The notes under the pieces were generated by a model. That model worked only from the letters and a program-made list of their open reading frames with translations, had not been told where the DNA came from and made no database searches. The translations under genes were made by a program, and so were the position numbers. From NCBI RefSeq assembly GCF_030296695.1, contig NZ_AP027737.1:2852001-2916000 (forward strand): a stretch of DNA of 64,000 bases, given 5' to 3'. The DNA is from Agromyces mangrovi. GTDB taxonomy: Bacteria > Actinomycetota > Actinomycetes > Actinomycetales > Microbacteriaceae. Positions within the stretch are counted from its first letter, which is position 1. Each line of letters starts with the position of its first letter. Positions 6,273 to 59,671 of the stretch are shown one piece after another.

Positions 6273-7228
6273 TCAGGACGCGATGCGCTGGCTGAAGGTG
6301 CGCCGGTACGCGGTGGGCGTGGTCTGCAGCACCTTGACGAAGTGGTGCCGCATGACGGCCGCGGCGCCGAACCCCGTGTCGCGCGCGATCTCCTCGAGCG
6401 TGAGGCCCGTGGTCTCGAGCAGCTGCTGCGCGCGCAGCAGGCGCTGACGGTTCAGCCAGGCGGTGGGCGTGGTGCCGGTCGCGGCGCGGAAGCGGCGAGC
6501 GAACGTGCGCGGCGACATGAGTGCACGCCGGGCGAGCGCGTCCACGGTGAGGTCCTCGTCGAGGTGCTCGAGCATCCAGTCGGTGACCTCGGCGAGCGAG
6601 TCGGCGCGCACCTCGGGCACGGGGCGCTGCACGAACTGCGACTGGCCGCCGTCGCGCTGCGGCGGCACGACCATGCGCCGGGCGACGATGTTGGCGGCCT
6701 CGGCGCCGAGCTCGGTGCGCACGATGTGCAGGGCGGCGTCGATGCCCGCGGCCGTTCCGGCGCCGGTGACGACGTGCCCGTCCTGTACGAAGAGCACGTC
6801 GGGGTCGACCTCGGAGCGGGGGAACCGGCGCTGGAGCGCGTCGGTGTACATCCAGTGGGTCGTGCAACGGCGGCCGTCGAGCACGCCGGCCTGGCCGAGC
6901 GTGAAGGCGCCGCTGCAGACCGAGAGCACCCACGCGCCGCGATCGACCGCCTCGCGGATGACCCGCAGCACCTCGGGGTGGGTGGGCGAATCGATGATGG
7001 AGGCGGGGACGGCGACGAGGTCGGCGGTCTCGGCGAACGAGAGGTCCTCCTTCACGACGAGGTCGAAGCCGAGCTTTGTCGGGACCGTGCCGGTCTCGGC
7101 GGCCACGACGTGGAAGTCGAAGGTGGGGCCGCCCTGCTCGGTGCGGTCGATGCCGAAGACCTCGCAGATGACGCCGAACTCGAACGGCGCGAGCTGGGGA
7201 GGGCGATGCAGGCGACGGTGGTGAGCAT
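6273..7228 (-). CDS. GlxA/FtrA-type transcriptional regulator (DJ-1/PfpI + AraC HTH), frame broken as read
   Basis: Residues 1 to about 180 form a DJ-1/PfpI-like amidotransferase-fold domain, with the nucleophile-elbow sequence LSVCSGAF. The C-terminus is an AraC/XylS double helix-turn-helix (RALMSPRTFARRFRAATG ... LEEIARDTGFG). The best start is ATG 7228 with ribosome site GGAGAGGG, giving MLTTVACIALP, but the frame then slips. Adding one G to the run at 7196-7199 restores ALPQLAPFEFGV and a 318-residue protein of normal family length. The missing base fits the window-wide deletion pattern, so the gene is probably intact. Repeated TGGCAGGA sites upstream suggest autoregulation. The ligand is unknown. 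Confidence 0.82.
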
Positions 7229-7250
7229 GGGCGGGCCCTCTCCTCGAGCG

Positions 7251-7323
7251 TGGCAGGAATGTGCCGATGTATGTCAATCCTGCCACTGGTGGCATGATCT
7301 GGCAATCCGTAGATTTCCTGCCA
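7251..7323. promoter_or_regulatory. Repeated TGGCAGGA/TCCTGCCA sites between glxA and a small ORF
   Basis: Three copies of the 8-mer lie in the divergent gap: TGGCAGGA at 7251-7258 and TCCTGCCA at 7278-7285 and 7316-7323. The first two face each other, and TGCCAC-TG-GTGGCA forms a further small palindrome at about 7281-7294. A minus-strand TTGACA (complement of 7272-7277) sits between them. The layout suits an autoregulatory operator for the GlxA-type protein. Confidence 0.55.
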
Positions 7324-7472
7324 TGACCATTCTCCTCATCCTCGTCCTCGTCGCGGTGGCCGCGTGGGGCGTCGTCGAGACGCTCCGGAGGATCGACGGG
7401 GACGGCTACGGCCGCCCGGAGATCCGCGACCGCATCCGCCACGTCGAGCGCCGCGCCACGCCCCGGATCTGA
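7323..7472 (+). CDS. Small single-helix membrane protein (49 aa)
   Basis: Begins at ATG 7323 with an N-terminal hydrophobic helix (ILLILVLVAVAAWGVV) followed by a charged tail of about 30 residues (ETLRRIDGDGYGRPEIRDR). It is divergent from the GlxA-type regulator and its start codon overlaps one of the TCCTGCCA sites, so it may be that regulator's target. Codon use matches neighbouring genes. I do not recognise a family; the layout (tail on the cytoplasmic side) suggests a small membrane adaptor or regulator. Confidence 0.6.
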   Translation: MTILLILVLVAVAAWGVVETLRRIDGDGYGRPEIRDRIRHVERRATPRI

Positions 7473-7521
7473 TTCCGGCCCGACCGGCCCCGCCGGTCGT
7501 CCCCGTCCGCCTCGCGCGAGC

Positions 7522-7552
7522 CCGGCCCGTCGATAGAGTGTCGACGGGCCGG
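7522..7552. promoter_or_regulatory. 12-base inverted repeat enclosing a -10 box upstream of galE
   Basis: Perfect arms CCGGCCCGTCGA (7522-7533) and TCGACGGGCCGG (7541-7552) flank the 7-base centre TAGAGTG. The centre contains TAGAGT, a good -10 box 39 bases before the galE start. There is no T run, so an operator over the promoter is more likely than a terminator, though a hairpin ending the small ORF transcript is possible. Confidence 0.55.
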
Positions 7553-7578
7553 CCCCACTCGGCCCGCGAGGAGGACAC

Positions 7579-8553
7579 GTGAACTGGTTGGTCACCGGCG
7601 GCGCCGGCTACATCGGGGCGCACGTCGTGCGCGCGCTCGTCGCGGAGGGGCTCGGCACCGTGGTGCTCGACGACCTGTCGTCGGGACGGCGCGGCTTCGT
7701 GCCCGACGGCGTGCCGCTGGTGCACGGGTCGATCCTCGACGGCCCGCTCGTCGACCGCACGCTGCACGAGTACGAGATCGCCGGGGTCATCCACGTCGCG
7801 GGCTTCAAGTACGCGGGCGTCTCGGTGCAGGAGCCGCTGCACACCTACCGCCAGAACGTCACGGGCACCGCGACGCTGCTGGCCGCGATGCAGGAGCGCG
7901 GGGTCGAGCGGATCGTGTTCTCGTCGAGCGCGGCCGTCTACGGCACGCCCGACGTCGACCTGGTCACCGAGGACACGCCCAAGTCGCCCGAGTCGCCCTA
8001 CGGCGAGTCGAAGCTGATCGGCGAGTGGATGCTGCGCGACCAGGGGGTCGCCACGGGCCTGCGCCACACCTCCCTGCGCTACTTCAACGTCGTCGGCTCG
8101 GGCACGTCCGAGGTCTACGACGTCAGCCCGCACAACCTGTTCCCGCTCGTCTTCGACGCGCTCATCGAGGGACGCACTCCGCGCATCAACGGCGACGACT
8201 ACCCGACGCCCGACGGCACCTGCGTGCGCGACTACCTGCACGTCGCCGACCTCGCGGCGGCCCACGTCGTGGCGGCGAAGCGGCTCGCCGACGACCAGCC
8301 GATCGAGCCGGTCTACAACCTCGGCTCCGGAGACGGGGTCTCCGTCGGCGAGATCATGCGCGCGGTCGCCGAGGTCACGGGCATCGACTTCACGCCCGAG
8401 ATCGCGCCGCGGCGCGCGGGCGACCCGGCCCGCATCGTCGCGTCCGGCGACCTCGCCGCGCGCGACCTCGACTGGCGCATGCGGCACTCCCTCGCAGACA
8501 TGGTCGCGAGCGCGTGGGAGGCCCGCCGGGCGGCATCCGACCCGACCGCCTGA
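7579..8553 (+). CDS. galE: UDP-glucose 4-epimerase
   Basis: A 324-residue short-chain dehydrogenase fold enzyme interconverting UDP-glucose and UDP-galactose. It has the NAD motif GGAGYIG (residues 7-13), a substrate-side SSSAAVYG, and the catalytic YGESK with Tyr141 and Lys145. The GTG start at 7579 is supported by GAGGAGG 5 bases upstream. The product feeds galactose units into envelope polysaccharides, in keeping with the nearby glycosyltransferase and ligase genes. It is followed by a hairpin, so it is probably transcribed alone. Confidence 0.95.
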   Translation: MNWLVTGGAGYIGAHVVRALVAEGLGTVVLDDLSSGRRGFVPDGVPLVHGSILDGPLVDRTLHEYEIAGVIHVAGFKYAGVSVQEPLHTYRQNVTGTATLLAAMQERGVERIVFSSSAAVYGTPDVDLVTEDTPKSPESPYGESKLIGEWMLRDQGVATGLRHTSLRYFNVVGSGTSEVYDVSPHNLFPLVFDALIEGRTPRINGDDYPTPDGTCVRDYLHVADLAAAHVVAAKRLADDQPIEPVYNLGSGDGVSVGEIMRAVAEVTGIDFTPEIAPRRAGDPARIVASGDLAARDLDWRMRHSLADMVASAWEARRAASDPTA

Positions 8554-8594
8554 TCACGGATCCGCACCGGATCGGCGTGTCGTGATGGCCGCCT

Positions 8595-8619
8595 AACCCT
8601 CGACGACGCCTTGAGGGTT
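8595..8619 (+). terminator. Hairpin after galE
   Basis: AACCCTC (8595-8601) and GAGGGTT (8613-8619) pair around an 11-base loop and are followed by TAACAT. The stem is short and the T tract is weak, so termination is plausible but not certain. Confidence 0.4.
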
Positions 8620-8632
8620 TAACATCTGCGAC

Positions 8633-8666
8633 TTGACGCGCGCGAACTACACGAGTGTAATTACAC
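8633..8666 (+). promoter_or_regulatory. whiB2 promoter with palindrome over the -10 box
   Basis: TTGACG (8633-8638), a 17-base spacer and TGTAAT (8656-8661) form the best sigma-70-type promoter in the window. The -10 lies inside GTGTAATTACAC (8655-8666), a perfect 12-base palindrome, suggesting a repressor or autoregulator site. The leader to the ATG at 8713 is about 45 bases. Confidence 0.7.
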
Positions 8667-8712
8667 GTGACGCGGCGACACGCCGAGTCGGTACGAATGG
8701 GTGGGAGACGAT

Positions 8713-9033
8713 ATGGCTGTTCCCGAATATCGTTCTGGCGTACCGGACGACTGGTTCATCGACCCCGTGAAGCTCGGGGTCCCGGGGGTTCGCGCACAGA
8801 CCGACGACGACAATCCGCTCTCCTGGCAGACGGATGCGCTCTGCGCGCAGACGGATCCGGAGGCGTTCTTCCCCGAGAAGGGCGGCTCCACGCGCGACGC
8901 GAAGAAGATCTGCACCACGTGCGAGGTGCGCTCGCAGTGCCTCGAGTACGCGCTGGCGAACGACGAGCGCTTCGGCATCTGGGGCGGCCTCTCCGAGCGC
9001 GAGCGCCGCAAGCTGCGCCGGCGGGCGGTCTGA
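8713..9033 (+). CDS. whiB2: WhiB2 (WhmD-like) iron-sulfur regulator
   Basis: A 106-residue Wbl protein with cluster ligands Cys44, Cys67, Cys70 and Cys76 in the C-x2-C-x5-C spacing, the beta-turn GIWGG and the basic tail RERRKLRRR that contacts DNA. Wbl proteins bind a [4Fe-4S] cluster and act with the primary sigma factor; WhmD/WhiB2 is needed for septation in mycobacteria. The ATG at 8713 has GGGAGA upstream; a reading from GTG 8701 adds four residues and is less likely. The neighbours (DUF3499, the metallopeptidase-family gene) are those of Rv3260c, which supports WhiB2 over other Wbl members. Confidence 0.92.
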   Translation: MAVPEYRSGVPDDWFIDPVKLGVPGVRAQTDDDNPLSWQTDALCAQTDPEAFFPEKGGSTRDAKKICTTCEVRSQCLEYALANDERFGIWGGLSERERRKLRRRAV

Positions 9034-9110
9034 CCGGTCGCTCGGCCCCCGATCGGGGCACGCCGCGCGGCTGAACGGCGTGCGGGAGGACCCGACCTAG
9101 GCTGAGCGCG

Positions 9111-12100
9111 ATGATCCCGAGTGTCGCCGCCGTCCTCGTCGTCCGCGGCGAGGCTCCGCTCCTCGAGCGAGCGCTCGAGGCCGTTCGCGGGCAGCACCGC
9201 GCCGTCGACTCGCTGACCGTCGTCGCCTGCCGGGTGCCGGATGCCGCGCTGTCGCGGATCGAGCGGGCCGAGCCCGACCACATCGTGACCAGTGCGCAGG
9301 AGCTCGACTACGGCGCCGCACTGCGGGCGGGAGTCGCAGCCCACCCCGAGGGGGCCTCGGACGAGCTCCTCTGGTTGCTCGACGCCGCCACGATCCCGAC
9401 GCCGGACGCGCTGCGGGTGCTCGCCGCCGAACTCGAGACGGCGCCGTCGGTCGTCGCGGCCGCGCCGAAGCTCGTGCGCGACGACGAACCCGACCGCATC
9501 GCGTCGATGGGCGAGTCGATGACCCGGCTCGGCGCGTCGGTGGACCTGGTGGGGGGCGAGCTCGACCAGGGCCAGCACGACCGGCTGAGCGACGTGCTCG
9601 GGACTTCGCCGCACGGCATGCTCGTGCGGCGTTCGGCGTGGGACGACCTCGACGGGCTCGATCCGGCGCTGCCGGCCGTCGACGACGGCCTCGACCTCGG
9701 CGTGCGCGCGCGCCTCGCCGGCCACCGCGTCGTCGTCGTGCCGGCGGCGGCCGTGCGCATCGCCGCCGACCGCGACGACCGCCGCGCCGGGGCGGCCGCC
9801 CGACGCCGGCACCGGGAGCGACGCTCTGCCCAGCTGCACCGGAGGTTCGCGTACGCCGCATGGCCGGCGCTGCCCGTGCACTGGCTGTCGCTGCTCCCGC
9901 TCGCCGTGCTGCGGTCGGCGTGGCACCTGCTGACCAAGGCGCCCGGGTCGATCCCCGGCGAGTGGGTGGCGTCGGCGCGGGCGCTGGTGCTGCTCGGGCC
10001 GGTGGTCGCCGCGCGCCGTCGGATCCGGCGGAATCGAGGGGCCAGGTGGAGCGCCATCGCTCCGCTCCGGCTCCCGCCCGACGAGCTGCGCCGCCGACGC
10101 GCGCAGGAGCGCGACGCGCGCCGAGTGCGCGCGCGCGGCCAGCGCGAGGAGGTGCACTTCATCGCGGGCGGCGGTGGCTGGACGGTGCTCGCCGCGACCG
10201 TGGCATCCGTGGCCCTGTTCCTCTTCCTGATCGGGTCGTCGGGCGTCTCCGGCGGCGGACTCCAGCCGCTCGCCGCGCAGGTCGGCGAGCTCTGGGGTTC
10301 CGCGGCCTACGGCTGGCGCGACATCGACACCGGCTTCGTCGGCGCGGCCGACCCGTTCGCCGGCGTGCTCGCCGTGCTCGGCACCGCGAACTGGTGGTCG
10401 CCGTCGTTCGCGCTCGTGCTGCTCTGGATCGGCGCCGTTCCGCTGTCGGCGCTCGGCGGCTGGTTCGCCGCCGCGCGCCTCACCGACCGCGCCGGCATCC
10501 GCGCGGTCACCGGGCTCGCGTGGGCCGTCGCGCCGCCGCTCTTGGTGGCCCTCGCCGACGGCCGGCCCGCCGCGGTGCTCGCCCACGTGCTGCTGCCCTG
10601 GCTGGTCTGGTCGATGATCGCGGCGGCACGCTCCTGGCCGGCGGCGGCGGTCGCCGCGCTGCTGTTCGCCGCGGTCGTGGCCTGCGCGCCGTCGCTCGCT
10701 CCCGCCCTCGTGCTGGGCTGGCTCGTCGCCGCGATCGTCAGCCGGCACCCGCTGCGCTACCTCGGCATCCCGGTGCCGGCGGCGGTGCTCGCCGCGCCCC
10801 TCGTCATCGACCAGGTCGTGCGCGGCACGCCGCTCGGCCTGCTCGCGGACCCCGGCCTGCCGACGGCGTCGGGCCCGACCGGCGGCACGGCGCTCGTGCT
10901 CGCCTTCCCGGCCGACGCGTACGCGGCGTGGGCGGAACCGCTCGCGGCGCTCACGGGCGGCACCATCGCACCGACGGTGCTCGTGGCGTCGATGCTCCTG
11001 CCGCTCGGGCTGCTGGCGGCCGCGGCCGTGTTCGTGCGCGGTGCCCGCGCCGGCATCGGCGCGCTCGGGATCGCCCTGGCGGGGTTCGCGACCGCGGCCG
11101 CGGCGGCGCAGGTCTCGGTCGCCACCGCGGGCGAGGACGCGGTGCGGGTGTGGACGGGAGCGGGCCTCAGCCTGTACTGGCTGGGGCTGCTCGGGGCCGC
11201 GCTCGTGACGCTCCGCGCGATCGGGCGCCATTCCGCGGTGCCGGGGGCCGTCGCGCTGCTCGGCGTCGTGCTGGCGATCCTGCCGGTCGGGGTCGCGATC
11301 GCGACCGGCTCGGCGGCGGTGCAGCCCGCCGGGCCGCGGACGGTGCCCGCGTTCGTCGAGGCCGCGGCGGCCGAGGACCCCCGCGTGGCCACGCTGCGGC
11401 TCGTGCCGCAGGCGGACGGCGGCCTGCGCGCGGTGCTCGAGCACGGCGCCGGCACGACCCTCGACGAGCAGTCGACGCTCGCGGCCACGGCGGATGCGCT
11501 CGATGACGACCAGCGCGAGCTCGCGGAGCTCGCGGGCAACCTCGCCAGCCGCACCGGCTTCGACACCACGGCCGGGCTCGAGCAGTTCGGCATCCGGTTC
11601 GTGCTGCTCGGCACCGCGTCCGACGACGAACGACGGGCGACGGCGACCGAGGCGCGCGCCGCCACCGCCATGGACCAGAATGCGGCCCTGGTGCCCGTCG
11701 GGGACACCGAGTTCGGACGCTTGTACCGCACCGCGGACGAGGGCGACACGACGGCCGCGACCGCGATCCCCGTCGGTGCGGGGGCGCGTGGGGCGCGTGG
11801 GTCGTCGGCATCCAGCTCGCGGTCGTGATCGGCACGCTGCTGCTGGCGATGCCGATCGGGGCCGGGCGGGAGCGGGGCGCCGCAGGCCGACCCCGCCGCC
11901 GCTCGTCGACACGGTCGTGCGCGCCGATGCCGCCGCCGAGCAGGATGCTGCCGAGCAGGACGCGGCCGAGCAGGACGCTGCCGAGCAGGACGCAGCCGAG
12001 CAGGACGCGGCCGAGCAGGATGCTGCGGAGCAGGACGCCGCCTCGTCGCCGGAGCCCGAGCCGGGCCCCCGGACGCGGCCGCCGCCGCCGACGATCCGGG

Positions 12101-12169
12101 TGCCGACACGGATGCCGCCGAGGCCGACGCCCGGCCGGACGAGCGGACGGACCGAGGGGAGACGCATGA
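9111..12169 (+). CDS. Family 2 glycosyltransferase with large membrane domain, frame broken near 3' end
   Basis: Residues 1 to about 250 form a GT2 (GT-A fold) catalytic domain (AAVLVVRGEAPLLERALEAV; LDAATIPTPDALRVLA). It is followed by about a dozen helices and an extracytoplasmic segment, as in the GT2 neighbours of whiB2 and DUF5719 in actinobacteria. The start is leaderless: TAGGCT (9098-9103), 7 bases, ATG. As read, the frame stops at 11828. Adding one G at 11780-11784 restores a helix (GAWVVGIQLAVVIGTLLLAM); a second near 11874-11877 opens the AEQDA repeat. Two further slips (about 12063-12069 and 12154-12158) would bring the stop to 12167-12169, overlapping the next ATG as ATGA and giving about 1020 residues. 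The last two are tentative. Confidence 0.8.
11935..12039 (+). repeat. Seven 15-base tandem repeats encoding AEQDA
   Basis: The unit GCC-GAG-CAG-GAY-GCN is repeated seven times without interruption; differences are almost all at third positions. It lies in the cytoplasmic C-terminal tail of the glycosyltransferase. The degeneracy shows the peptide, not just the DNA, is kept, while the structure could still vary in copy number between strains. Confidence 0.85.
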
Positions 12170-14433: not shown

Positions 14434-15915
<1,482 letters not shown>

Positions 15916-16785: not shown

Positions 16786-17780
16786 ATGGACCTCGACGCC
16801 CTCGCCGCCGCCCGCCGCCCCGAGTGGGATCGGCTCGACGAGCTCGCGCGCACGAGGCGCCTCGACGGCGCGGAGGCGGACGAGCTGATCGCCCGCTACC
16901 AGGCCGGTGCGGCCGACCTGTCGACGCTGCAGACGACGGCCGGCTCGACCGCGGTCGGCGACCGGCTCTCGGTGTCGCTGTCTCGCGCCCGCATCCGCTT
17001 CACGGGCGCCGGCACGAATCTCCTCGCGCGCATCCCGCAGTTCGCGGTCGTGCAACTGCCCGCGGCACTGTACCGGGTGCGCTGGCTGACCCTCGCGGTG
17101 GCGGTCGCGACGCTCGCGGTGGCGGGCCTCGTCGCGGGCTGGGCGCTGGCCGACCCGCGCGTGCTCGCCTCGCTCGGCAGCGACGAGCAGTTCGAGCAGC
17201 TGGCCCGCGAGGACTTCGTCGACTACTACTCCGAGAACCCGGCGGCGTCGTTCACGGGCCTCGTCTGGACCAACAACGCCTGGATCGCCGCGAAGTGCAT
17301 CGCCTTCGGCATCACGGGCGTGTTCGTGCCGTACGTGATCCTGCAGAATGCGCAGAACCTCGGCGTGACGGGCGCGGTCATGTTCGCGTACGGCGAGGGC
17401 GACACGTTCTTCGCGTACATCGCGCCGCACGGGCTGCTCGAGCTCACCGCGGTGTTCGTGGCCGCGGCGGCGGGGCTGCGCATCTTCTGGTCGTGGGTGG
17501 CGCCCGGGCCCCGCACGCGCGGTCAGGCGCTCGCCGAGGACGGCCGTGCGCTGTTCTCCATCGCGCTGGGCCTCGTGGTCGTGCTGCTGGTGTCGGGCGT
17601 CATCGAGGGGTACGTGACGCCGGCGCCATGGCCGTGGCCCGTGAAGGTCGGCATCGGCGTGGTCGCACTCGGCGCGTTCCTGGCGTACATGCTGGTGCTC
17701 GGCGGCCGCGCGGTGCGGGCGGGGAGACCGGCGACCTCGACGAGTCCGAGGCGGGCGCGCGCACGATCGTCGCCGGCTGA
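16786..17780 (+). CDS. Stage II sporulation protein M-like membrane protein, frame broken near 3' end
   Basis: A 331-residue (corrected) protein with an N-terminal amphipathic domain (LARTRRLDGAEADELIARYQ) and about six helices, including the SpoIIM-type NNAWIAAKCIAFGITG. As read, the frame continues to 18387 straight through the opposite-strand ArsR-like gene. Adding one G to the run at 17721-17724 gives AGETGDLDESEAGARTIVAG and a stop at 17780, a normal acidic C-terminus. The start is probably leaderless (TAGTAT, 8 bases, ATG). In this cluster SpoIIM, RDD, DUF58 and MoxR are thought to act together at the envelope; the role in non-sporulating actinobacteria is unknown. Confidence 0.85.
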
Positions 17781-21159: not shown

Positions 21160-22612
21160 TCGACGCGAACGTCGTCGGCGCGGGGCCCAACGGGCTCGCG
21201 GCCGCGGTGACGCTCGCCGCGGCCGGGCTGCGCGTGCGCCTCACCGAGCGCGCGGAGACGATCGGCGGGGGCTCCGCACCGAGGAGCTCACGCTGCCCGG
21301 GTTCCGGCACGACCTGTGCTCCGCCGTGCACCCGGCGGCGCTCGCCTCGCCCTTCTTCCGTGCGTTCCGTCTCACCGAACGCGTGCCGTTCGTCGTGCCC
21401 GACGCCTCCTACGCCCACCCGCTCGACGACGCGCCCGCCGGCATCGCCTGGCGCGACCTCGATCGCACGGCCGCGGAGCTGGGCGACGACGGTGCCGCGT
21501 GGCGCGCGTTCTTCGCACCCCTCGTGCGCCGCATCGACGGCGTGGGCGACTTCACCGGGTCGCAGCTCCTCCGGGTGCCGCGGCGGCCGATCGCGGCGGG
21601 GCTGATGGGGCTGCGCGTGCTCGAGCAGGGCACGGCGGTCGCCGGGGCGCGGTTCCGCGGGCCCGTCGCGCCCGCGATGCTCGCCGGGGTCGCGGCGCAC
21701 GGCATCGGCCGGCATCCGTCCCTCGCCACCGCCGGGCCGGGCGTGCTGCTCGGCGCACACGCCCACGCCGCCGGCTGGGGACTGCCCGCCGGCGGGTCGC
21801 AGGCGATCGCCGACGCGCTGGCCGCCGAGCTCGTCGCCCGCGGGGGCGAGATCGTCACCGGTCACGAGGTGCGCTCGCCCGCCGACCTCGAGCGCAGCCG
21901 CATCACGCTGCTCGACACCTCGGTCGAGCAGCTCGTCGCGATCGCCGGGCACCGCCTGCCCGCCCACTACCGGCGCGCGCTCGCCCGCTTCCGCCACGGC
22001 GACGCGGTCGCGAAGGTCGACTTCGCCCTCTCGGCGCCCGTGCCGTGGGCCGACGCACGGGTGGCCGCGGCGCCCACCGTGCACGTCGGTGGCACCGCGG
22101 CCGAGATCGCCGCGAGCGAGCACGCCGTCCTGCGCGGGCGGGTGAGCGACCGGCCCTACGTGCTCGTCGTGCAGCCGACCCTCCTCGACCCGTCGCGGGC
22201 GCCCGCCGGTCGGCACACGCTGTGGGCGTACATCCACGTGCCGCGCGGCTCGCGCGTCGACGCGACCGAGCGCGTGATGGCGCAGCTCGAGCGGTTCGCG
22301 CCGGGCTTCCGGGACACCGTGCTCGCGAGCGTCGCGACCGACGCGGCCGAGCTCGAACGCCGCAACCCGAACGACGTCGGCGGCGACATCCTGGGCGGTG
22401 CGCTCACCGTGCCGCAGCTGGTCAAGCGCCCCGTGGTCTCGCCCGTGCCGTGGCGCACGCCCGTGCGCGGGCTCTACCTGTGCTCGGCGTCGACGCCGCC
22501 CGGGCCGAGCGTGCAGGGCATGAACGGGTGGTTCGCCGCGCGACTCGCGCTGCGCGAGCACTTCGGCGTGCGGGAGGTGCCCTACGACGGCACGGTCGGC
22601 TTCGGCATCTGA
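21156..22612 (+). CDS. FAD-dependent oxidoreductase, phytoene desaturase/PYROXD2-like, frame broken near 5' end
   Basis: A 485-residue (corrected) flavoprotein. The N-terminal dinucleotide fold is [19 protein letters not shown] followed by [12 protein letters not shown]. The end contains [20 protein letters not shown], the FAD-closing motif of phytoene dehydrogenase-like oxidoreductases. The reading frame slips just after IGGG; adding one G to the run at 21267-21271 gives [17 protein letters not shown] and restores the rest. The GTG at 21156 overlaps the upstream stop. No carotenoid gene is near, so a carotenoid role is unproven; pairing with the lipase maturation factor suggests a membrane-associated redox partner. 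Confidence 0.83.
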
Positions 22613-24996: not shown

Positions 24997-26228
24997 TCAC
25001 CTGTTCCTGGTTCGGTCGGTCGGGTCGGCGGATGCCCCGGGGGCGCGCACGGCGTCGGCGAGGCGCTGCTCGAGGGCGTCCAGCTCTCGTGCGCGCCGGA
25101 CGAACTCGCCGTCGTCGGCGGGCGGGTCGCCGATGAGCAGCGCCCGCACGGCGGCGGGGTCCGCGCCGAGCAGCGCGGCGGCGGCGTCGGCGATGTCGCT
25201 CGCGGGCGCGTGGCCCGGCAGGCCGACGAGCGCGGCGATGCGCCCGAGCGCGCCGATGCGCATCGCGTCGAGCGCACGGCCGCGGGCGTCGCTGCGCGCG
25301 TAGAGGCGGCCGCGGCCCTCGGTCGTCTCGCGGGCGCGCACCACCACCGGCAGCCGCTCCACGACGAGCGGCCCGAAGCGCCGTCCGCGCCAGACGGCGG
25401 CCGCCACGGTCGTGACGACGAGCAGCAGCAGCACGGGGAGACCCACGGCGGCGTGAGCTCGCCGATCGTGGGGCCGGCGTCCGACGCGTCGGCGGCGCCC
25501 GGCTGGTACCAGACGAGCCGCTCGGCCGAGCCGAGCACGCCCAGCGCGAGCGCCGCGTTGCCCGCCTCCGCGACCGTGTCGTTCGCGAACACCTCGGTGC
25601 CGGCGACGACGACGACCTCGGGGCCGCCGTCGGCCGGGCCGAACGCGAGGCGGACGGCGCCGCTCTCGTCGGGGAAGCAGCCGCGCCAGCCGGACGCACG
25701 GGCGTCGTCGTCGACCGTCAGCACGTCTCCGACCCCGCCCAGCGCACCCGCGCGCTCCGCCGCGGGCACGTCGCACGCGGCGGCATCCGTCGGGCCGGCG
25801 GCGAGTCCGCCGAACCGCACGCCGGGCGCCAACGCCTCGAGCGCGGCGAACGTGGGCGCCACGACGACGATGCGTCGCGCGGCGGCGGTCAGCTCGTCGA
25901 CCTGGTCGCTCCCGAGCAGCCCGAGGTCGTCGACGAGCAGCACCGTCGCGCCGTCCGCGCGGGCCGCGGCCGCGTCGAGCGAGTCGACGGGCACCACCTG
26001 CACGCCCTGCGCCGAGAGCACGTTCGCGACGGCGGCGCCGCCCGCGGGTGCGGCGTTGTCGGCGCCCAGCGGGCGCCCGCCGCCCGTGCCCGCGCCCTGC
26101 AGCACGGCCACGCCGACCGACACCACGAGCACGATCGCCGCGACCACGATCCAGCCGCGCCGGTCGACGAGCGCGCGCCGCAGGGTCGGGGTCTCGGCCG
26201 GGGCGACCCCGGCGACCGGCGCGCTCAC
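24997..26228 (-). CDS. DUF4350 domain protein, frame broken
   Basis: A 410-residue (corrected) protein with an N-terminal helix (WIVVAAIVLVVSVGVAVL), an extracytoplasmic DUF4350 domain (ATVLLVDDLGLLGSDQVDEL; VVAGTEVFANDTVAEAGNA) and a second helix followed by a cytoplasmic tail. The frame is lost between TPPW and the second helix; adding one G to the plus-strand run at 25435-25438 gives WVSPVLLLLVVTTVAAAVW. GTG 26228 overlaps the DUF4129 stop. It is one of the fixed members of the MoxR/DUF58 operon (Rv3691-like); it may sense or hold an envelope ligand, but no activity is known. Confidence 0.85.
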
Positions 26229-26865
26229 GAGCTCGCCTCCGCGAGGCCCGCGGGGGTGCGGCGCACGAGCTCCGCGTCGAGGTCGTGCACCGCGGCGTAG
26301 TCGGCCGGGTCGGCGTGCCCGCCGCCGTAGCGCACGCGCTCGAACGCGTCGGCCGCGGCGACGAGGCGTTCGGCGAGCCCGGGGAAGGCCGGCGCCGCGC
26401 CGTCGGCGACGCGATGCGCGGTCGTGCCGGGCAGGAGCGTCAGCACGGTGCGCTCGTCGAGCCCGCGGGCGAGGCCACGGAACGCCTCGACCACCGCGGT
26501 GTCCCAGTCGCCGCGACCGGCGGCATCGGCTGCGGCGCGCCGCAGCCGGGAGGCCGATCGCCGATCGTCGGCGCCCAGCACGCCCGAACCGCCGTCGATG
26601 GCGCGGCGCCGCAGCCGGGGCATCCCGTAGACGAGGAGCAGCGCGACCACGACGCCGGCGACGATCACGGCTCCGACGAGCAGCAGGGTCGGCGCAGGCA
26701 GGCCGGCCCCGCCCGAGAAGAGGTCGGCGAGCCACTCGCGCACCGCGTCGGCCGCGCGGTCGAACGCCGTCGGGCTGGCCGCCGCGTACTCGGGGAGCGC
26801 AGCTCCTCCTCGAGCAGTCGTCGCGCCTCGTCGGCGTCGGGGTCGAGCGGCACGTCTCGGCGCAT
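26225..26865 (-). CDS. DUF4129 domain protein, frame broken near 5' end
   Basis: A 213-residue (corrected) membrane protein with one strong helix (LLLVGAVIVAGVVVALLLVY) and a C-terminal DUF4129 domain (VEAFRGLARGLDERTVLTLLPG ... ADAFERVRYGG). The likely start is ATG 26865 (MRRDVPLDPDADEARRLLEEEL), in a different frame from the rest. Adding one G to the run at 26792-26795 joins them as LRSPEYAAASPTAFDRAADAV. Without repair only a shortened reading from 26743 remains. DUF4129 is often linked to transglutaminase-like envelope proteins. The gene overlaps DUF4350 by four bases and follows the GDPD-membrane-like gene by 5. Confidence 0.83.
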
Positions 26866-28892: not shown

Positions 28893-30595
28893 GTGCGCGG
28901 CGACGGCGAGCTGCCCCCATCACCTGGCGCTCGTGGCGGAGCTGGCCGAGGCAGTTCGCCGCGCTGTTCCGCCGCTCGCTCCAGTTCCGGACGGTGCTCA
29001 TCACGATCACCCTGTCGGGGCTCGCGATCCTCGTGATCGGCCTCTACATCTCGTTCAGCATCGCGTCGAACCTGTTCCAGACGCGGCTCGACCAGGTGCT
29101 CGACGCATCGACCAACGCCGAGTCGGCCGCGCAGGCCGTGCTCGACTCGTCGGATGCCACGGATCGTGCCGCGCTCCAGAGCGTGCTCCGGTCGGCCATC
29201 GAGCGCGCGAGCGTCACGGCGTCGAGCCCGCTGGTCGCCGTCTACCGGGCGCCGGGGCAGGAGCCGTCTGCGGTCGCCCCGCAGGACCAGGGCACGAACC
29301 AGCTCACCAACGCCATCACCGACCAGCTGCGCGCCACGGTGCAGGAGAACCCGGGCAGCCAGTTCTGGCAGTCGGTCGAGTTCGTCGAGCTCGACGGCGC
29401 GGGCGTCCCCGGCGTCGTGGTCGGCAGCGACGTGGAGCTGCCCTCCGCGGGGCGGTACGAGCTGTACATCGGCTACAACCTCGCCGACGCCGATGCGACG
29501 CTCGCGTTCATGCAGTTCACCGGCGTGGTCGGCGCGATCGCCCTGCTCGTGCTGCTCGCGGTCATCACGCTGCTCGTCGTGCGCTGGGTGATCGAGCCGA
29601 TCCAGGCGGTGTCGGCGACGAGTCGCCGGTTCGCGGGCGGCGACCTGGGCGTGCGCATGGAGGCGAAGGGCGAGGACGAGCTCGCCACGCTCGCCGAGTC
29701 GTTCAACGGCATGGCCGACAGCCTGCAGCAGCGCATCCACGAGCTCGCCGAGCTGTCGGTCATGCAGCAGCGCTTCGTGTCCGACGTCTCGCACGAGCTG
29801 CGCACGCCGCTCACGACCATCCGGCTCGCCGGCGACGTGCTGTACCAGCAGCGCGAGGACTTCCGCCAGTCGACCTCGCGCACCGTCGAGCTGCTGCACA
29901 CCCAGACCGAGCGCTTCGAGACCCTGCTGGCCGACCTGCTCGAGATCAGCCGCTACGACGCCGGTTCGGTCGAGCTCGAGACGGAGCCCACGAACCTGGT
30001 GCACCTGGCGACGGATGCCGTCGAGGGCATGCACACGCTCGCCGAGGAGCGGGGTTCCGACGTGCGGGTCGTCGCCCCGGGCGGGCACCTCGACGCGGAG
30101 GTCGACCCGCGCCGCATCCGTCGCGTGGTGCGGAACCTCCTCGGCAACGCGATCGAGCACGGCGAGGGCCGGCCGATCGTGGTCTCGGTCGACAGCGACG
30201 AGCATGCGGTGGCCCTCGCGGTGCGCGACTACGGGCTCGGCATGACCGCCGAGGACGCCGATCGCGTCTTCGACCGCTTCTGGCGCGCCGACCCGAGCCG
30301 CAAGCGCTCCATCGGGGGCACCGGGCTCGGGCTGGCGATCTCGCTCGAGGACGCCCACGTGCACGGCGGGTGGCTCGAGGTGTGGTCCGAGCCGGGAGCC
30401 GGCTCCTGCTTCCGCCTCACGCTGCCGCGCCGAGCGGGCGGCGTGATCGAGTCCTCGCCGCTGCACCTGCCGCCCGACGACGCCGCGGGCGCGGACCCCG
30501 AGGTGGCGCGGCTCGTCGAGTCCGTGGGCTCGACGGGGCCGGTCCCCACGGCGCAGGACGCCGACCTCGAACGATCGGAGGCCGACCGTGCGTAG
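28893..30595 (+). CDS. mtrB: Sensor histidine kinase MtrB, frame broken at 5' end
   Basis: A 567-residue (corrected) membrane kinase for MtrA. Helix 1 is ITITLSGLAILVIGLYISF, an extracytoplasmic region follows, then helix 2, HAMP, the His box FVSDVSHELRTPL, and an ATPase domain ending with GGTGLGLAISLEDAHVHGG. The in-frame sequence upstream of 28994 has no start codon. Adding one C to the run at 28914-28918 links it to GTG 28893 and yields VRGDGELPPITWRSWRSWPRQFAALF, shown in two parts here: VRGDGELPPITW and RSWRSWPRQFAALF. That is a typical MtrB N-terminus. It lies 7 bases after mtrA and overlaps lpqB by 8. Confidence 0.92.
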
Positions 30596-36995: not shown

Positions 36996-37441
36996 TCAGA
37001 GCACGCTGATCGCGCTCGCGCGCCAGCGGGCGTCGAGGCCCTCCAGGCGGATGGCGACCGCGCGCGAGCGTGCCTTGCTGTGCACCATCACGACGGCTTC
37101 GATGATGCCGTCGCGGGGTTCGCACTGGTGGATGCGCCCGATGCTGAACGCCGGCCGCGATGGTGCCTGGCCCTTGACCCGACGCGCCCGCGCGCCGAGC
37201 ACGACGCGCTTCAGCAGGTGCCGGTACACGTCGTCGTTCACCCACCTGGCCATCTGCTCGAGTTCCTCGCCCCCGCGAGTACCTCGATCACGCAGCGGGT
37301 CAGGTTGGTGAGCAGCGGCTCCGGATCTGGAAGCTCGCTGCGCACCGACGGTTGCCGTGCGAAGAAATCGTCATCGAATGCGGTGCCGGAACCCCTTGCG
37401 GCCCCCCTGGTCCCGACATCCCTCCTTACTGCTGCGGTCAT
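36996..37441 (-). CDS. Rv3235 family protein, frame broken
   Basis: A 148-residue (corrected) basic cytosolic protein. The first part has LPDPEPLLTNLTRCVIEVLAGA and the second ARWVNDDVYRHLLKRVVLGAR and EAVVMVHSKARSRAVAIRLE. They join as GARELEQMARWVNDD if one base is added at 37265-37266. ATG 37441 is chosen because GGAG stands 5 bases upstream; a longer reading from ATG 37522 adds 27 residues. It is convergent with secA and its orthologue Rv3235 is close to SecA1 in mycobacteria. Function is unknown. Confidence 0.78.
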
Positions 37442-37574
37442 TTCTGCTCCACATGGGACGCGTCGCCCGCCGGCCGCGGCGGGCGACGTGACGGCCCCGT
37501 CGCCGGGGGCCGAGTCGGTCATTGCTGAGCAAATTACGTGCGTGTCATGCGCGGTGTCAATAAGGAACCCTCAT

Positions 37575-47930: not shown

Positions 47931-50202
47931 TGAGCGAGCAGACCCCCTCCGCGACCGGTTCCACGTCCCGCGTGCCCACCTGGCTGCGCGTCCTGATCCC
48001 GGCCGTGCTCGTGCTGGGCTGGTTCGCCGCGTTCGGCCTGGGCGGCGCCTCCTTCGGACAGCTGTCCGACGTGTCCACCAACGACCAGACGCAGTTCCTG
48101 CCAGCGAGCGCCGAGGCGACCGAGGTCAACGAGCTGCAGGCGGAGTTCCGCGACGACGACCTCATCCCGGCCGTCGTGGTCTACGCCACCGACGACGGCG
48201 AGCTGACCGACGCGCAGCTCGCCGACATCGAGGACCAGCGCGACGAGTTCGCGTCGGTCGACGGGGTCGACGCCGACGGCGCGTCCCCGGTGATCGTCTC
48301 CGACGACGGCGAGGCCGCGCAGGTCGTCGTGCCCGTGATCTCCGGCGAGCCGGGCACCGAGGCCGTCGAGGAACTCCGGGCCCTGATCGCGGAGGAGCCC
48401 GTCGAGGGCGTCACCGCGGCCGTCACCGGCCCGGCCGGGTTCACCGCCGACCTCACCGGCGCGTTCGCGGGCATCGACGGCCTCCTGATCGCCGTCGCGT
48501 TCGCCGCGGTCCTCGTGATCCTCGTCATCGTCTACCGCTCGCCGCTCTTGCCGATCATCGTGCTCTTCACGAGCCTCACCGCGCTGTGCACCGCGGTGCT
48601 GGTCGTCGTGACGCTCGCGGCCGCCGACATCCTGCTGCTCACCGGCCAGACCCAGGGCATCTTGTTCATCCTCGTGATCGGGGCCGCGACCGACTACGCG
48701 CTGCTCTACATCGCGCGCTATCGCGAGACGCTCGCGACCGAGCCGACGAAGTGGGCCGCGACCTGGGCGGCGCTCAAGGGCTCGTGGGAGCCCATCCTCG
48801 CGTCGGGCGGCACCGTCATCGCGGGCCTGCTGATCCTGCTCGTGAGCGAGCTGAACTCGAACAAGTCGCTCGGCCCGGTGGCGGCGATCGGCATCGTGTG
48901 CGCGCTGCTGGCGGCGCTCACCCTGCTGCCGGCGCTGCTGCTCTGGGCGGGGCGCGTCGCATTCTGGCCGCGGCGTCCGCGCGCGGCATCCGACGACCCC
49001 GACCAGGTCGGCAGCGGCGCCCGCGGGTTCTGGGGCTCCGTGAGCCGGCTCGTCTCGCGCCGTCCGCGCTGGGTGTGGATCGTCTCGACCGTGCTGCTCG
49101 GCGTGATGTCGATCGGGCTCGTGCAGCTGGAGGCCGACGGCGTGCCGTCGAGCGAGTTCGTGCTCGGCGAGTCGCAGGCGCGCGACGGGCAGGAGCTGCT
49201 CGGCGAGCACTTCCCGGCCGGCTCCGGCACGCCCGCCGTCATCATCGGCCCGGAGGACGACCTCCAGGCGCTCGCCGACGTCGCGCTCGCCACCGACGGC
49301 ATCGCCTCGGTCGCCGTGCTCGCGTCGGACTCGCCGTCGGGCCAGGCCGAGGTCACCGCCGACGGCATCCAGGCGCTCGGCCCGCCCGGCACCCCCGCGC
49401 CCGAGCCCGACGTGGTCGACGGCGACGTGCTGCTGCAGGCGACGCTCGAGGACCCGGCCGACTCGCTCGAGGCCGAGGCGACGGTGAAGGAGCTGCGCGT
49501 CGCGCTCGACGAGGTGTCCGAGGACGCCCTCGTCGGCGGCACGACCGCCGTCGCGCTCGACACCAACGAGGCCGCGATCGCCGACCGCACGCTGATCATC
49601 CCGCTCGTGCTCGCCGCGATCCTGCTGATCCTGATGCTGCTGCTGCGCTCGATCCTGGCGCCGGTGCTGCTCATCGCGAGCGTCGTGCTCTCGTTCGGCG
49701 CCGCGCTCGGCGTGTCGGCCGTGGTCTTCCAGACCGTGTTCGGCTGGGACGGCGCCGACCCGTCGGTGCCGCTGTTCGGCTTCGTGTTCCTCGTGGCGCT
49801 GGGCGTGGACTACAACATCTTCCTCATGACGCGCGTGCGCGAGGAGTCCTCGTGCACGGCACGAGGCCGGGCATCTTGCGCGGGCTCGCGCTCACCGCGG
49901 GGGTCATCACCTCGGCCGGCCTCGTGCTCGCGGCGACGTTCGCCGCGCTCGGGGTCATCCCGATCCTGTTCCTCGCGCAGATCGCGTTCATCGTCGCGTT
50001 CGGCGTGCTGCTCGACACCTTCCTCGTGCGGACGCTGCTGGTGCCCGCGCTCGCGTACGATATCGGCCCGGCCGTCTGGTGGCCGTCCAAGCTCGCGCGC
50101 CCGCACGACGGGCGACACGTGGGGGGTCACGACGGCGGCGATGCTCCGGCCGCGGGCGATGGGGACGCGCCCGCGCGGGTGGAGGCGACAGCGGTGCGCT
50201 GA
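47930..50202 (+). CDS. MMPL/RND family transporter, frame broken
   Basis: A 757-residue (corrected) transporter with two similar halves of six helices and two large extracytoplasmic loops. The charged helix motifs are GAATDYALLYIARYRE in half one and LGVDYNIFLMTRVREE in half two. The frame is lost right after the second; adding one C at 49848-49849 gives REESLVHGTRPGILRGL and continues to 50202. MMPL proteins export lipids, siderophores or drugs; the substrate cannot be deduced. The tail is His/Gly/Asp-rich. A repressor-type palindrome overlaps its promoter. Confidence 0.88.
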
Positions 50203-55692: not shown

Positions 55693-55864
55693 CGGCGGTC
55701 GGGCGGATGCCGCGTGCCGGCGCCGCGGCGATCCGCGCGCGACAACCGTGCGGATCCGCAGCCTCGCGAGGTTATACTTGCGTCCACGATGGACGACCCT
55801 CCCAGTTCCAGTCCCAGTTCCCCTGGTCATAGACCCCTGCCCGTGAACGATCGGTCGGGTGCGA
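55693..55864 (+). promoter_or_regulatory. Promoter and leader of the CNNM operon
   Basis: TATACT at 55773-55778 is a near-consensus -10. The leader (about 80 bases) contains a partial direct repeat CCCAGTTCCAGTCCCAGTTC and no obvious ORF or known riboswitch; I looked for an Mg-sensing element because CNNM proteins transport Mg or related ions, but nothing was clear. A CGGATGCC octamer is at about 55704-55711. Confidence 0.45.
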
Positions 55865-57181
55865 ATGCCTGAGTGGCTCCTGCTCACGTTCGGACTCCTG
55901 CTCACGATCGGCACGGGCTTGTTCGTCGCCAGCGAGTTCGCGCTGGTCAACCTCGATCGCTCCGACCTCGAGGCGCGCCGCGCCCGCGGCGAGTCCCGGC
56001 TGGGCCTCACGATCGCCGCGCTCAAGATCACGTCGACGCACCTGTCGAGCGCGCAGCTCGGCATCACGATCACGACGCTGCTCACGGGCTACACCATGGA
56101 GCCCGCGATCAGCTCGCTGCTGGCGGGCCCGCTCGAGGCGATCGGCGTGCCCGAGTCGCTCGTGCGACCCGTCGGCGCGACCACCGCGATCATCGTGGCG
56201 ACGCTGCTGTCGATGATCATCGGCGAGCTCGTGCCGAAGAACTTCGCGCTCGCGCTGCCGCGCCAGACGGCCGTGCTGGTGATGCCGTTCCAGACGGCGT
56301 TCACCACCGTGTTCGGTCCGGCGATCCGCCTGCTGAACGGCAGCGCGAACGCCCTGCTGCGCCTCATGGGCGTGGAGCCCAAGGAGGAGCTCTCGGGCGC
56401 CCGCTCGGCGGAGGAGCTGTCGTCGCTCGTGCGCCGGTCGGCGAGCGCGGGCATGCTCGAGAAGGACACGGCCACGCTGCTCAGCCGCACGCTGAGCTTC
56501 TCGCGGCTGAGCGCCGCCGACGTCATGACGCCGCGCCCACGGGTCGCGAGCGTCTCGCGCGACGACACGGCCGCGACCGTGATCGAGCTGGCATCGCAGA
56601 CCGGGTACTCCCGCTTCCCGGTGCACGAGGAGAACCTCGACGACGTGGTCGGCCTCGTGCACGTCAAGCAGGCCGTCGCCGTGCCGCGCGAGCGCCGCGC
56701 CGACGTTCCCGTGTCGGCCCTGCAGTCCGACGGGCTCCGCGTGCCCGAGACGATGCGCCTGGACGCGCTGCTCGGCGAGCTGCGCGGCCGCGGCTACCAG
56801 ATGGCCGTCGTCGTCGACGAGTACGGCGGCACCGCGGGCGTCGCCACCCTCGAGGACCTGGTCGAGGAGATCGTCGGCGAGGTCTCCGACGAGCACGACC
56901 GCTCGCGCGCGGGCATCGTGCGCCGGGCGGACTCGATCACGTTCCCCGGGCTGCTCCGGCCCGACGAGCTGCTCGAGCGCGCCGGCATCCGCGTGCCCGA
57001 CGAGGGCCCGTACGAGACGGTCGGCGGGTACGTGATGAGCGAGCTCGGCCGCCTGCCCGCGGTCGGCGACGAGATCGAGACCGAGGACGGCACGCTCCGC
57101 GTGGTGCGCCTCGAGGGCCGTCGCATCGACCGGCTGCGCTACGTGCGCACCGCGCCCGTGGAGGAGGCCGCCGATGTCTGA
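55865..57181 (+). CDS. CNNM/CorC-type transporter with DUF21, CBS pair and CorC_HlyC domain
   Basis: A 438-residue membrane protein. A DUF21 membrane domain (about 1-190; FVASEFALVNLDRSDLEA and IIGELVPKNFALALP) is followed by two CBS domains (about 215-335; VMTPRPRVASV, AVVVDEYGGTAGVATLEDLVEE) and a CorC_HlyC domain (ETVGGYVMSELGRLPAVGD). It belongs to the family that exports Mg2+ or Co2+ and has been called 'hemolysin' without evidence. ATG 55865 is preferred over GTG 55859. It overlaps the next gene by 8 bases. Confidence 0.9.
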   Translation: MPEWLLLTFGLLLTIGTGLFVASEFALVNLDRSDLEARRARGESRLGLTIAALKITSTHLSSAQLGITITTLLTGYTMEPAISSLLAGPLEAIGVPESLVRPVGATTAIIVATLLSMIIGELVPKNFALALPRQTAVLVMPFQTAFTTVFGPAIRLLNGSANALLRLMGVEPKEELSGARSAEELSSLVRRSASAGMLEKDTATLLSRTLSFSRLSAADVMTPRPRVASVSRDDTAATVIELASQTGYSRFPVHEENLDDVVGLVHVKQAVAVPRERRADVPVSALQSDGLRVPETMRLDALLGELRGRGYQMAVVVDEYGGTAGVATLEDLVEEIVGEVSDEHDRSRAGIVRRADSITFPGLLRPDELLERAGIRVPDEGPYETVGGYVMSELGRLPAVGDEIETEDGTLRVVRLEGRRIDRLRYVRTAPVEEAADV

Positions 57182-58211
57182 TTGGGCCGGAATCGCCTGG
57201 CTGGTCGTGCTGCTGGCCGGCAACGCCTTCTTCGTCGGCGCGGAGTTCGCCGTGATCTCCGCTCGGCGCTCGCAGATCGAGCCGCTCGCCGAGGCCGGCC
57301 ATCGCCGCGCCCGCACGGCGCTCTGGGCGATGGAGCACGCGACGCTCATGCTCGCGATGAGCCAGCTCGGCATCACGATCTGCTCGTTGCTCATCCTGAA
57401 CGTCTCCGAGCCGGCGATCCACCACCTGCTCGAGGTCCCGCTCGCGCTCACCGGCTGGTCGGAGGAGGTCATCGGCGTCATCGCGTTCGTGATCGCGCTG
57501 GTGCTCGTCTCCTACCTGCACGTCGTGCTCGGCGAGATGGTGCCGAAGAACCTGTCGTTCTCGATGCCCGACAAGGCGGTGCTGCTGCTCGCGCCCCCGC
57601 TGGTGTTCACGGCGCGCGTCTTCCGCCCCGTGATCGTGACGCTGAACGCGGCGGCGAACGGCATCGTGCGGCTCTGCCGCGTCGAGCCGAAGGACGAGGC
57701 GACGAGCACGTTCACGCTCGAGGAGGTGCAGACGATCGTCGACCAGTCGCGCCGCGAGGGCGTGCTGGAGGACTCGAGCGGCACGCTGAGCGCCGCGTTC
57801 GAGTTCACGACGAAGGTCGTGCGCGACGTGGCCCTGCCGCTCGACGAGCTGGTCAGCCTCGGGCCGGAGGGCACGCCGGGCGACGTCGAGCGCGCGGTCG
57901 CGCGGCGCGGCTTCTCGCGCTACGTGATCTGCGACGCCGCGGGCGAACCGGCCGGCTACGTGCACCTGAAGGACGTCATCGACCTGCACGACCACGAGTT
58001 CGACGAGCCGATCCCGCAGAAGTTCGTGCGGCAGCTGGTCTCGATCTACGCCGAGACCGACCTCGAGGACGCGCTCGCGACCATGCGCCGCACGGGCTCG
58101 CACCTGGCGCGGGCGTTCGACGCCGAGGGCGCGACGACGGGCGTGCTGTTCCTCGAGGACATCATCGAGGAGCTCGTCGGCGAGGTGCAGGATGCCACCC
58201 GACGCGTCTAG
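57174..58211 (+). CDS. CNNM-type transporter without CorC domain
   Basis: A 345-residue paralogue of the upstream gene: DUF21 domain (FFVGAEFAVISARRSQIEPL; VLGEMVPKNLSFSMP) and a CBS pair, with no CorC_HlyC domain after about residue 335 (FLEDIIEELVGEV ends it). The tandem pair is typical of Gram-positives and may form a heteromer. ATG 57174 overlaps the first gene's stop, so they are coupled. The NUDIX gene overlaps its 3' end by 20 bases. Confidence 0.88.
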   Translation: MSDWAGIAWLVVLLAGNAFFVGAEFAVISARRSQIEPLAEAGHRRARTALWAMEHATLMLAMSQLGITICSLLILNVSEPAIHHLLEVPLALTGWSEEVIGVIAFVIALVLVSYLHVVLGEMVPKNLSFSMPDKAVLLLAPPLVFTARVFRPVIVTLNAAANGIVRLCRVEPKDEATSTFTLEEVQTIVDQSRREGVLEDSSGTLSAAFEFTTKVVRDVALPLDELVSLGPEGTPGDVERAVARRGFSRYVICDAAGEPAGYVHLKDVIDLHDHEFDEPIPQKFVRQLVSIYAETDLEDALATMRRTGSHLARAFDAEGATTGVLFLEDIIEELVGEVQDATRRV

Positions 58212-58761
58212 GGGCGCGCTGCCGTGGCGCGCGCTCGAGTCCCGGGTCGCGTACGAGAACCGCTGGATCCGGGTGCGCGAGGATCAGGTCGAGGGCCCGC
58301 ACGGCCGCGGCGTGTACGGCGTGGTCGAGATGCGCCACCCGGCGGTGTTCGTCGTCGCCCTGGACGACGACGACCGGGTGTGCCTCGTGTCGCTCGCCCG
58401 CTACCCGGGCGGCAAGTGGTCGTGGGAGGTGCCCGCGGGCGGCTCGGACGGCGAGGACCCGCTCATCGCCGCGCAGCGCGAGCTGGCCGAGGAGACCGGG
58501 CTCGCCGCGGCCGAGTGGGTGCGCCTCGGCGGCATGGACGCGCTGAACGGCATCGCGGATGCCCCGGAGCACGTGTTCCTCGCCCGCGGCCTCGAGCCGG
58601 TGGCCGACGCGCGGGCCACGCAGGGCGAGGAGGGCATCGACGAGGTGCGCTGGGTGCCCTTCGGCGAGGCGCTGGCGATGGTCGCCGCGGGGGAGATCAG
58701 CGACGGCGAGACGATCGCCGCGCTCGCGTTCGCCGGCATCCACCTCGGCCGCTTCCGCTGA
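58192..58761 (+). CDS. NUDIX hydrolase (ADP-ribose pyrophosphatase-like)
   Basis: A 189-residue enzyme with the Nudix box GGSDGEDPLIAAQRELAEETG, shown here as GSDGEDPLIAAQ and RELAEETG, in a beta-rich fold with the PGGKWSWEVPAGG lead-in. The class that hydrolyses ADP-ribose or other nucleotide sugars is likely but not certain. ATG 58192 lies inside the end of the CNNM gene, so co-transcribed. GTA/GTC alternatives downstream would cut the fold. Confidence 0.88.
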   Translation: MPPDASRGALPWRALESRVAYENRWIRVREDQVEGPHGRGVYGVVEMRHPAVFVVALDDDDRVCLVSLARYPGGKWSWEVPAGGSDGEDPLIAAQRELAEETGLAAAEWVRLGGMDALNGIADAPEHVFLARGLEPVADARATQGEEGIDEVRWVPFGEALAMVAAGEISDGETIAALAFAGIHLGRFR

Positions 58762-58820
58762 CGCCCTCGCACCGGGCGGGGTGTCGCGCGCCAGAGCCCG
58801 GCGCGCCTATCGTGGGGCGC

Positions 58821-59671
58821 ATGGGCGCGGAAGACGGCTGGCGCGACTGGACGGCGGCGGATGCCGCCCGGTGGATCGCCGTGCCGGAGGCATCCGATGA
58901 CAAGTACCGCCGGGGCGTGCTCGGCGTGCGCACCGGATCGGACGAGTACCCGGGAGCGGCCGTGCTCGGCGTCGAGGCGGCGGCGCGCACCGGCGTCGGG
59001 ATGATCCGCTACCTCGGCCCAGCCGCGGTGCGCGATGCCGTGCTCGCCCGTCGCCCCGAGGTCGTTGGGCAGGCGGGGCGCGTGCAGGCGTGGCTGCTCG
59101 GCTCGGGCATGGACCCGTCGGTGCGGTCGGAGGCCTTGGCCGGCGAGCTGCGCGAGGCGCTCGCATCCGGCCTGCCCGCGGTCGTCGACGCCGGCGCGCT
59201 CGACCTCGCGCCGGCGGGCACGGGGCCGATCGTGGTCACGCCCCACCACCGGGAGCTGGTCGGCCTGCTCGGCGGGTGCGGCGTCGAGGCGACGGTCGAC
59301 GACGTCGCCGCGCGACCGGGGAGTGGGCGGTGCGCGCGGCCGAGGTCGCGGGCGTCGTGGTGCTGCTGAAGGGCGCCGTCACGCACGTGGCCGCGCCCGG
59401 CGGCGCGTGCCTGCGCGTCGAGCTGGCGACCCCGTGGCTCGCGACGGCCGGGGCGGGCGACGTGCTCGGCGGCATCCTCGGGGCCCTGCTCGCGACCCAT
59501 CACCGCGAGGTGGCGACGGATGCCTCGGTGCTCGCGCCGCTCGCCGCGACGGCCGCGGCCGTGCACGGGCTGGCCGCGCGTCGGGCGTCGGGCGGCGGTC
59601 CGATCGCGGCGCTGGACGTGGCCGAGGCGGTGCCCGCCGTGATCGCGGAGCTCGTCGCCGACCGTCGCTAG
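58821..59671 (+). CDS. nnrD: ADP-dependent NAD(P)H-hydrate dehydratase, frame broken
   Basis: A 283-residue (corrected) YjeF C-terminal-type repair enzyme that restores NAD(P)H from damaged hydrates using ADP. The sequence has VVTPHHRELVGLLGG, VLLKGAVTHVAAPGG and the GAGDVLGGILGAL catalytic loop. The frame slips in the middle; adding one G to the run at 59318-59321 gives ARPGEWAVRAAEVAGVVVLL. The N-terminal epimerase domain is absent and should be encoded elsewhere. ATG 58821 follows TATCGT by 7 bases (leaderless). Confidence 0.85.

Follow-up and report, generated by a model that had tools for sequence, protein, structure and literature searches.

The question raised by the stretch of DNA examined here is whether a series of genes, each interrupted by a missing base, is broken in the cell or only in the assembly. 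The stretch, hereafter the window, comprises 64,000 nucleotides (positions 2852001-2916000) of the single contig of the Agromyces mangrovi assembly (GCF_030296695.1, contig NZ_AP027737.1; 3,613,806 bases), and its genome is that of an Agromyces-like member of Microbacteriaceae. A preliminary description of the window had ascribed the missing bases to systematic deletion errors of a long-read assembly. That explanation is supported by the comparison with relatives: on the sequence evidence, systematic deletions in a long-read consensus account for the losses with a probability close to certainty, and the broken genes are almost certain to be intact in vivo. The support comes from a strong excess of losses over those of the nearest relative, their dependence on sequence context, their recurrence in a second block of the genome, the codon bias around the breaks, and the splitting of sole copies of genes.

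The listed completeness and contamination of the assembly are 95.35% and 4.41%, and those of 24 congener genomes are 92-100% and 0-3%, respectively; the contamination is the highest in this comparison and the completeness is not the lowest. The LpqB protein encoded in the window has matches in all 24 congener genomes searched; among named records, it matches an uncultured Agromyces bin at 98% and Agromyces salentinus at 45%. In one of the 24, the single-contig genome G019, the match to LpqB lies in two frames instead of one (G019:C1:1030732-1032394), which is perhaps an error of the same kind. The window was compared with three relatives (G001, G023 and G015) by a four-way alignment, and was realigned pairwise with the nearest relative, G001, to which it aligns end to end with 95.7% identity; two further genomes, G016 and G008, were used for BLAST overlaps and run counts only. 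The wider sample consisted of 540 kb around the window, the corresponding contig of G001 (536 kb) and a further 520 kb from G023, within which about 484 kb of the window genome was aligned to G001. A second block of 200 kb, at a distance of 1.45 Mb from the first, was compared with 200 kb of G023 (135 kb aligned).

The gaps of the BLAST alignments were unsuitable as a source of insertions and deletions (indels); because they held many paired, mutually cancelling indels, the sequences were realigned at a higher gap cost. A codon-usage gene finder was also set aside. It reached a coverage of just 77-78% and left several window genes uncalled, so the numbers obtained with it (single-base events in genes, 74 versus 9; affected genes, 56 of 339) were superseded by counts on a new gene set of 491 genes, which is 93% coding and was built also on the substitutions between G001 and G023. 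Indels near the edges of alignment chunks were left out.

In the window, all 13 places that had been described, 11 firm and two only possible, are one base short relative to G001 within a few bases. Twelve of these deficits fall inside a G001 gene in the pairwise table, and the thirteenth (17720, SpoIIM family) is a row at a chunk edge. The claim that the losses all point in one direction holds as well, at 13 versus 0 in the window genes (binomial p = 0.00024); no single-base loss was found in G001 inside these genes, except for one at the stop codon of secA (36924). Ten genes are affected, where nine or more had been reported, and none of the window genes requires the removal of a base. The relatives were also examined for the same interrupted frames, and they keep uninterrupted ones.

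In the wider sample, with positions of local identity ≤0.75 excluded, 75 single-base losses were found in genes of the window genome and 2 in genes of G001 (p = 4e-20). The counts without the identity filter are 79 and 4, of which the filter removed 4 and 2, respectively. When the comparison was made with G023, 66 of the 75 losses were seen again. Other indels are nearly symmetric between the window genome and G001, both for single bases outside genes (56 versus 52) and for multiples of three within genes (35 versus 31). For 454 genes, the alignment spans 90% or more of the gene; a loss that changes the frame is present in 64 of them in the window genome and in 6 in G001 (p = 3e-14). The lost bases are G in 44 cases, C in 18, A in 8 and T in 5. 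Private substitutions are not raised, at 9308 in the window genome and 10636 in G001 over 445,229 positions, and the largest excess of substitutions in any context is 25 versus 9. The losses are thus one-way with respect to relatives of independent assembly, as in a systematic assembly error. They occur wherever the genome was sampled and regardless of gene function, housekeeping genes included, in about a fifth of the genome.

The losses are bound to particular sequence contexts. Counting was restricted to runs flanked on both sides by three conserved, identical bases. From G001 to the window genome, G/C runs of three, four and five bases were shortened by one at 16 of 7358, 6 of 1445 and 24 of 283 sites, and six-base runs were shortened by one or two at 19 of 26; in the reverse direction, the corresponding values for three to six bases are 5/7355, 2/1469, 0/278 and 0/7. 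The frequency of loss therefore climbs with run length, as is characteristic of a systematic assembly error. Among five-base runs, GGGGGAG was shortened at 21 of 78 sites and other contexts at 3 of 205 (p = 2e-10). The motif GAGGG followed by AA, AC or AG was shortened at 8 of 37 sites, compared with 2 of the 661 other GAGGG sites (p = 1e-9), where GAGGG followed by AT was counted among the 661. Purine tracts of at least five bases with a longest G run of at most two were shortened at 1 of 4226 sites. The shortage is also visible in plain counts of G/C runs of at least six bases, of which the window genome has 13 (540 kb), G001 has 78 (536 kb) and G023 has 71 (520 kb). The second block has 7 such runs in its 200 kb, compared with 30 in an equal length of G023, and shortening affected 4 of the 7 six-base runs counted in G023. 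A/T runs in the window genome are too rare for testing.

If the affected genes were decaying, relaxed selection would be expected downstream of the breaks, with the third-codon-position share of substitutions in a drifting pseudogene moving toward one third. The share relative to G001 is 0.735 after the breaks and 0.736 before them, so selection is not relaxed after the break. Nor are indispensable single-copy genes spared. The lysA gene is present as three matched pieces in three different frames, none of which exceeds the family cut-off, and the family profile search gave no other match in the window genome; each of the 25 further congeners sampled has the gene whole and over the cut-off. 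For aspartate kinase, the two matched pieces overlap, lie in different frames and both fall short of the cut-off; this gene, too, is whole in 25 of 25 other genomes. A third aspartate kinase match in the window genome is weak and partial, and a similar one is present in most other genomes. The synthesis of diaminopimelate and lysine requires both enzymes. Twenty of the 54 hit genes beyond the window's ten, chosen by the author, were scanned for their families, and they include those for threonine synthase, PurK, phosphate acetyltransferase and ATP synthase delta. As for the window itself, the claim that essential or core genes are among those broken is weak, with most breaks near gene ends; it is strong outside the window, where lysA and aspartate kinase are split. 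Since only three genes are cut mid-body, damage to vital functions is not proved by the window on its own, and the strongest evidence for an artefact lies outside it. The infB and rho genes were set aside as proof of lethality, as their breaks precede the matched cores.

It is very improbable that the losses are real deletions, left by gene loss in the lineage or by a mutator biased to slippage losses in G/C runs. Such deletions would agree with the location of losses in runs, where slippage is expected, with the dispensable kinds of some of the genes, and with the slightly higher third-position share of unbroken genes (0.756; p = 0.025 versus the parts after the breaks). The last difference carries less weight because the parts before the breaks show 0.736 as well. 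The codon-position bias is alike downstream and upstream of the breaks, lysA and aspartate kinase are broken despite being sole copies, hardly any gains accompany the losses (2 versus 75), and substitutions are not raised; moreover, a mutator by itself would not pick out GGGGGAG. Programmed ribosomal frameshifting or phase-variable (contingency) runs, which could also place breaks at short runs, can scarcely be credited. The relatives have an uninterrupted frame at the same places, the functions of the hit genes are unrelated, and lysA has three breaks. Runs of four or five bases are also short for contingency loci.

The sharp context effect at GGGGGAG and GAGGGA could come from an unrecognised DNA modification that this lineage carries at such sites and that would lead the basecaller to omit a base. 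The window genome also has one more match to an N6/N4-type DNA methyltransferase than G001 or G015 (PF01555: two matches, versus one in G001, one in G015 and three in G023). The match without a counterpart in G001 and G015 lies at G000:C1:1322914-1323927 (-), and this surplus may be taken as a weak lead for modification only. The survey covered four genomes and three Pfam families, and for two of these families, PF00145 and PF02384, the window genome gave no match; other methyltransferase families were not searched. Plain six-base runs are shortened in every following context seen, and just about a quarter of the GGGGGAG sites are hit. A mismatch excess at a fixed motif is likewise not observed, whereas the modification errors described in the available text of PMC10687267 were mismatches. 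We consider it improbable that modification produced the losses, and equally so that their excess at GGGGGAG and GAGGGA marks modified sites; if it did, the error map would be an indirect map of the methylome.

Several observations weigh against the explanation by long-read assembly errors. Nine of the 75 losses are without support from G023, and the context effects are weaker in the comparison with that genome: in the first and second blocks, respectively, shortening affected 6/38 and 1/8 GGGGGAG sites (other five-base runs, 3/103 and 0/32) and 3/30 and 0/8 GAGGGA sites. The third-position share mentioned above is higher in unbroken genes, and in infB and rho the frame is broken only upstream of the matched core, the infB core being whole in the window genome as in 25 others. 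Only 740 kb of the 3.61-Mb genome was sampled, and in the nanopore assembly described in the available text of PMC12007338, A/T runs were the commonest site of error.

The one-way, context-bound losses are nevertheless found across both blocks examined, in genes that are otherwise normally selected, and we infer that the reads rather than the cells are their source and that these contexts give a flat signal. Under long-read assembly error, the raw signal would change little at G/C runs of six, GGGGGAG, GAGGGA and similar clusters, and the basecaller would undercount by one base at such flat-signal stretches in most reads. Because the same undercount would recur in most reads, the loss would outlast consensus polishing, and the retained loss would cut genes on paper only. 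Nanopore sequencing (R9-like) appears to be a likelier platform than PacBio continuous long reads (CLR) because of the high density of losses and the losses of non-run bases. PacBio may still be the platform, by analogy with the G/C runs of 4-10 bases that are one base short in PacBio-derived assemblies, as reported in the part of PMC11649196 available. Errors of this kind have been described before.

The individual sites in the window are shown in Table 1, where families were assigned from the intact G001 copies. The genes for DUF4350, MMPL and nnrD are the only ones cut mid-body, and the remaining genes are broken before residue 40 or close to the C-terminus; mtrB keeps an open frame of 533 aa (28994-30595) despite its break. 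The losses had been placed in G/C runs, but the missing base is not always a run member: at several sites it is a single base beside or between runs. The two deficits first considered only possible remain uncertain, owing to poor local conservation (12068) and to larger gaps in G023 and G015 (12155).

Table 1. Sites in the window at which the sequence is one base short (or, at 37494..37498, a run is shortened), with the position of the deficit relative to G001.
Feature	Position	Strand	Deficit versus G001	Remarks
GlxA-like gene (DJ-1/PfpI and AraC-type HTH)	7195..7199	-	7195	One base short; residue 12/318 of G001 copy; longer form shared by G001, G023 and G015
Glycosyltransferase-2 (GT2) gene, first deficit	11780..11784	+	11782	Residue 891/1018; four-way alignment; family from C-terminal piece of G001 copy
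GT2 gene, second deficit	11874..11877	+	11874	Residue 922/1018
GT2 gene, third deficit, uncertain	12063..12069	+	12068	Residue 985/1018; local identity 0.76
GT2 gene end, fourth deficit, uncertain	12154..12159	+	12155	Residue 1015/1018; larger gaps in G023 and G015
SpoIIM-family gene	17720..17724	+	17720	Near C-terminus; four-way alignment; chunk-edge row in pairwise table
FAD/NAD(P)-binding oxidoreductase gene	21267..21271	+	21271	Residue 39/485
DUF4350 gene	25435..25438	-	25437	Residue 264/410
DUF4129 gene	26791..26795	-	26791	Residue 25/213
mtrB-type sensor kinase gene (HAMP, HisKA, HATPase)	28914..28918	+	28914-28918	At gene start, residue 8/567
DUF6459 gene (earlier label Rv3235-like)	37264..37266	-	37264	Residue 28/116
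Shortened run just upstream of DUF6459 gene, outside genes	37494..37498	.		Longer in G001, G023 and G015; absent from the preliminary description
MMPL-family gene	49847..49849	+	49847	Residue 640/757
NAD(P)H-hydrate dehydratase (nnrD) gene	59317..59321	+	59317	Residue 166/283

Further G/C runs that are shorter than in G001 lie outside genes at 159, 4894 and 50229, where the other relatives leave their status as errors undecided. Inside the glycosyltransferase gene, ARAGORN called a tRNA-Thr (ggt) at 9948-10038 (+); this is probably a false call because Rfam, at the gathering threshold, gave no match anywhere in the window.

The phenomenon is ordinary, and its interest is practical, as a warning on this assembly and as a check for others. 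The assembly is the species representative in a reference set, and its automated annotation would report false pseudogenes. If the rate in the 484 kb holds, about 560 gene-cutting losses would be present in the 3.61 Mb and about 1 in 7 genes (64/454) would be mis-annotated. Claims of auxotrophy (lysine, threonine) or of gene decay drawn from the assembly would be false. Similar assemblies can be checked without reads by looking for too few six-base G/C runs combined with losses at GGGGGAG.

The losses can be compared with known error systems, as described in the available texts of four studies. According to PMC8011154 (Homopolish), nanopore errors are mainly homopolymer indels that persist after polishing and shift frames, with 151-5298 pseudogenes in Racon-Medaka assemblies of R9.4 data. 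In PMC12007338 (Kastor), deletions occur mostly after runs of four to five bases, with a few losses of a non-repeated base. The present assembly resembles such nanopore-only bacterial assemblies in that homopolymer indels outlast polishing, frames shift and false pseudogenes arise, in that most deletions follow runs of four to five bases, and in that some non-repeated bases are lost. It differs from both systems in that nearly no insertions are found in genes and a purine context (GGGGGAG, GAGGGA) is prominent; unlike the Kastor example, in which A/T errors exceed G/C errors, A/T runs are scarce in the window genome. In PMC11649196, nanopore errors are ascribed to methylation, to high G+C content and to the underestimation of runs longer than four to five bases, and two R9.4.1 Flye assemblies were about 82% complete. 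The PacBio RSII assemblies in the same study are similar to the present case, with G/C runs one base short, in one direction, in a high-GC actinomycete; however, they show 3, 5 and 8 differences per genome, whereas 75 were found here in genes alone within about 484 kb. The modification-mediated nanopore errors of PMC10687267, of which indels were not the cause, are likewise context-bound, systematic and visible against close relatives; those errors are mismatches at pentamers, whereas the present ones are deletions without an excess of substitutions.

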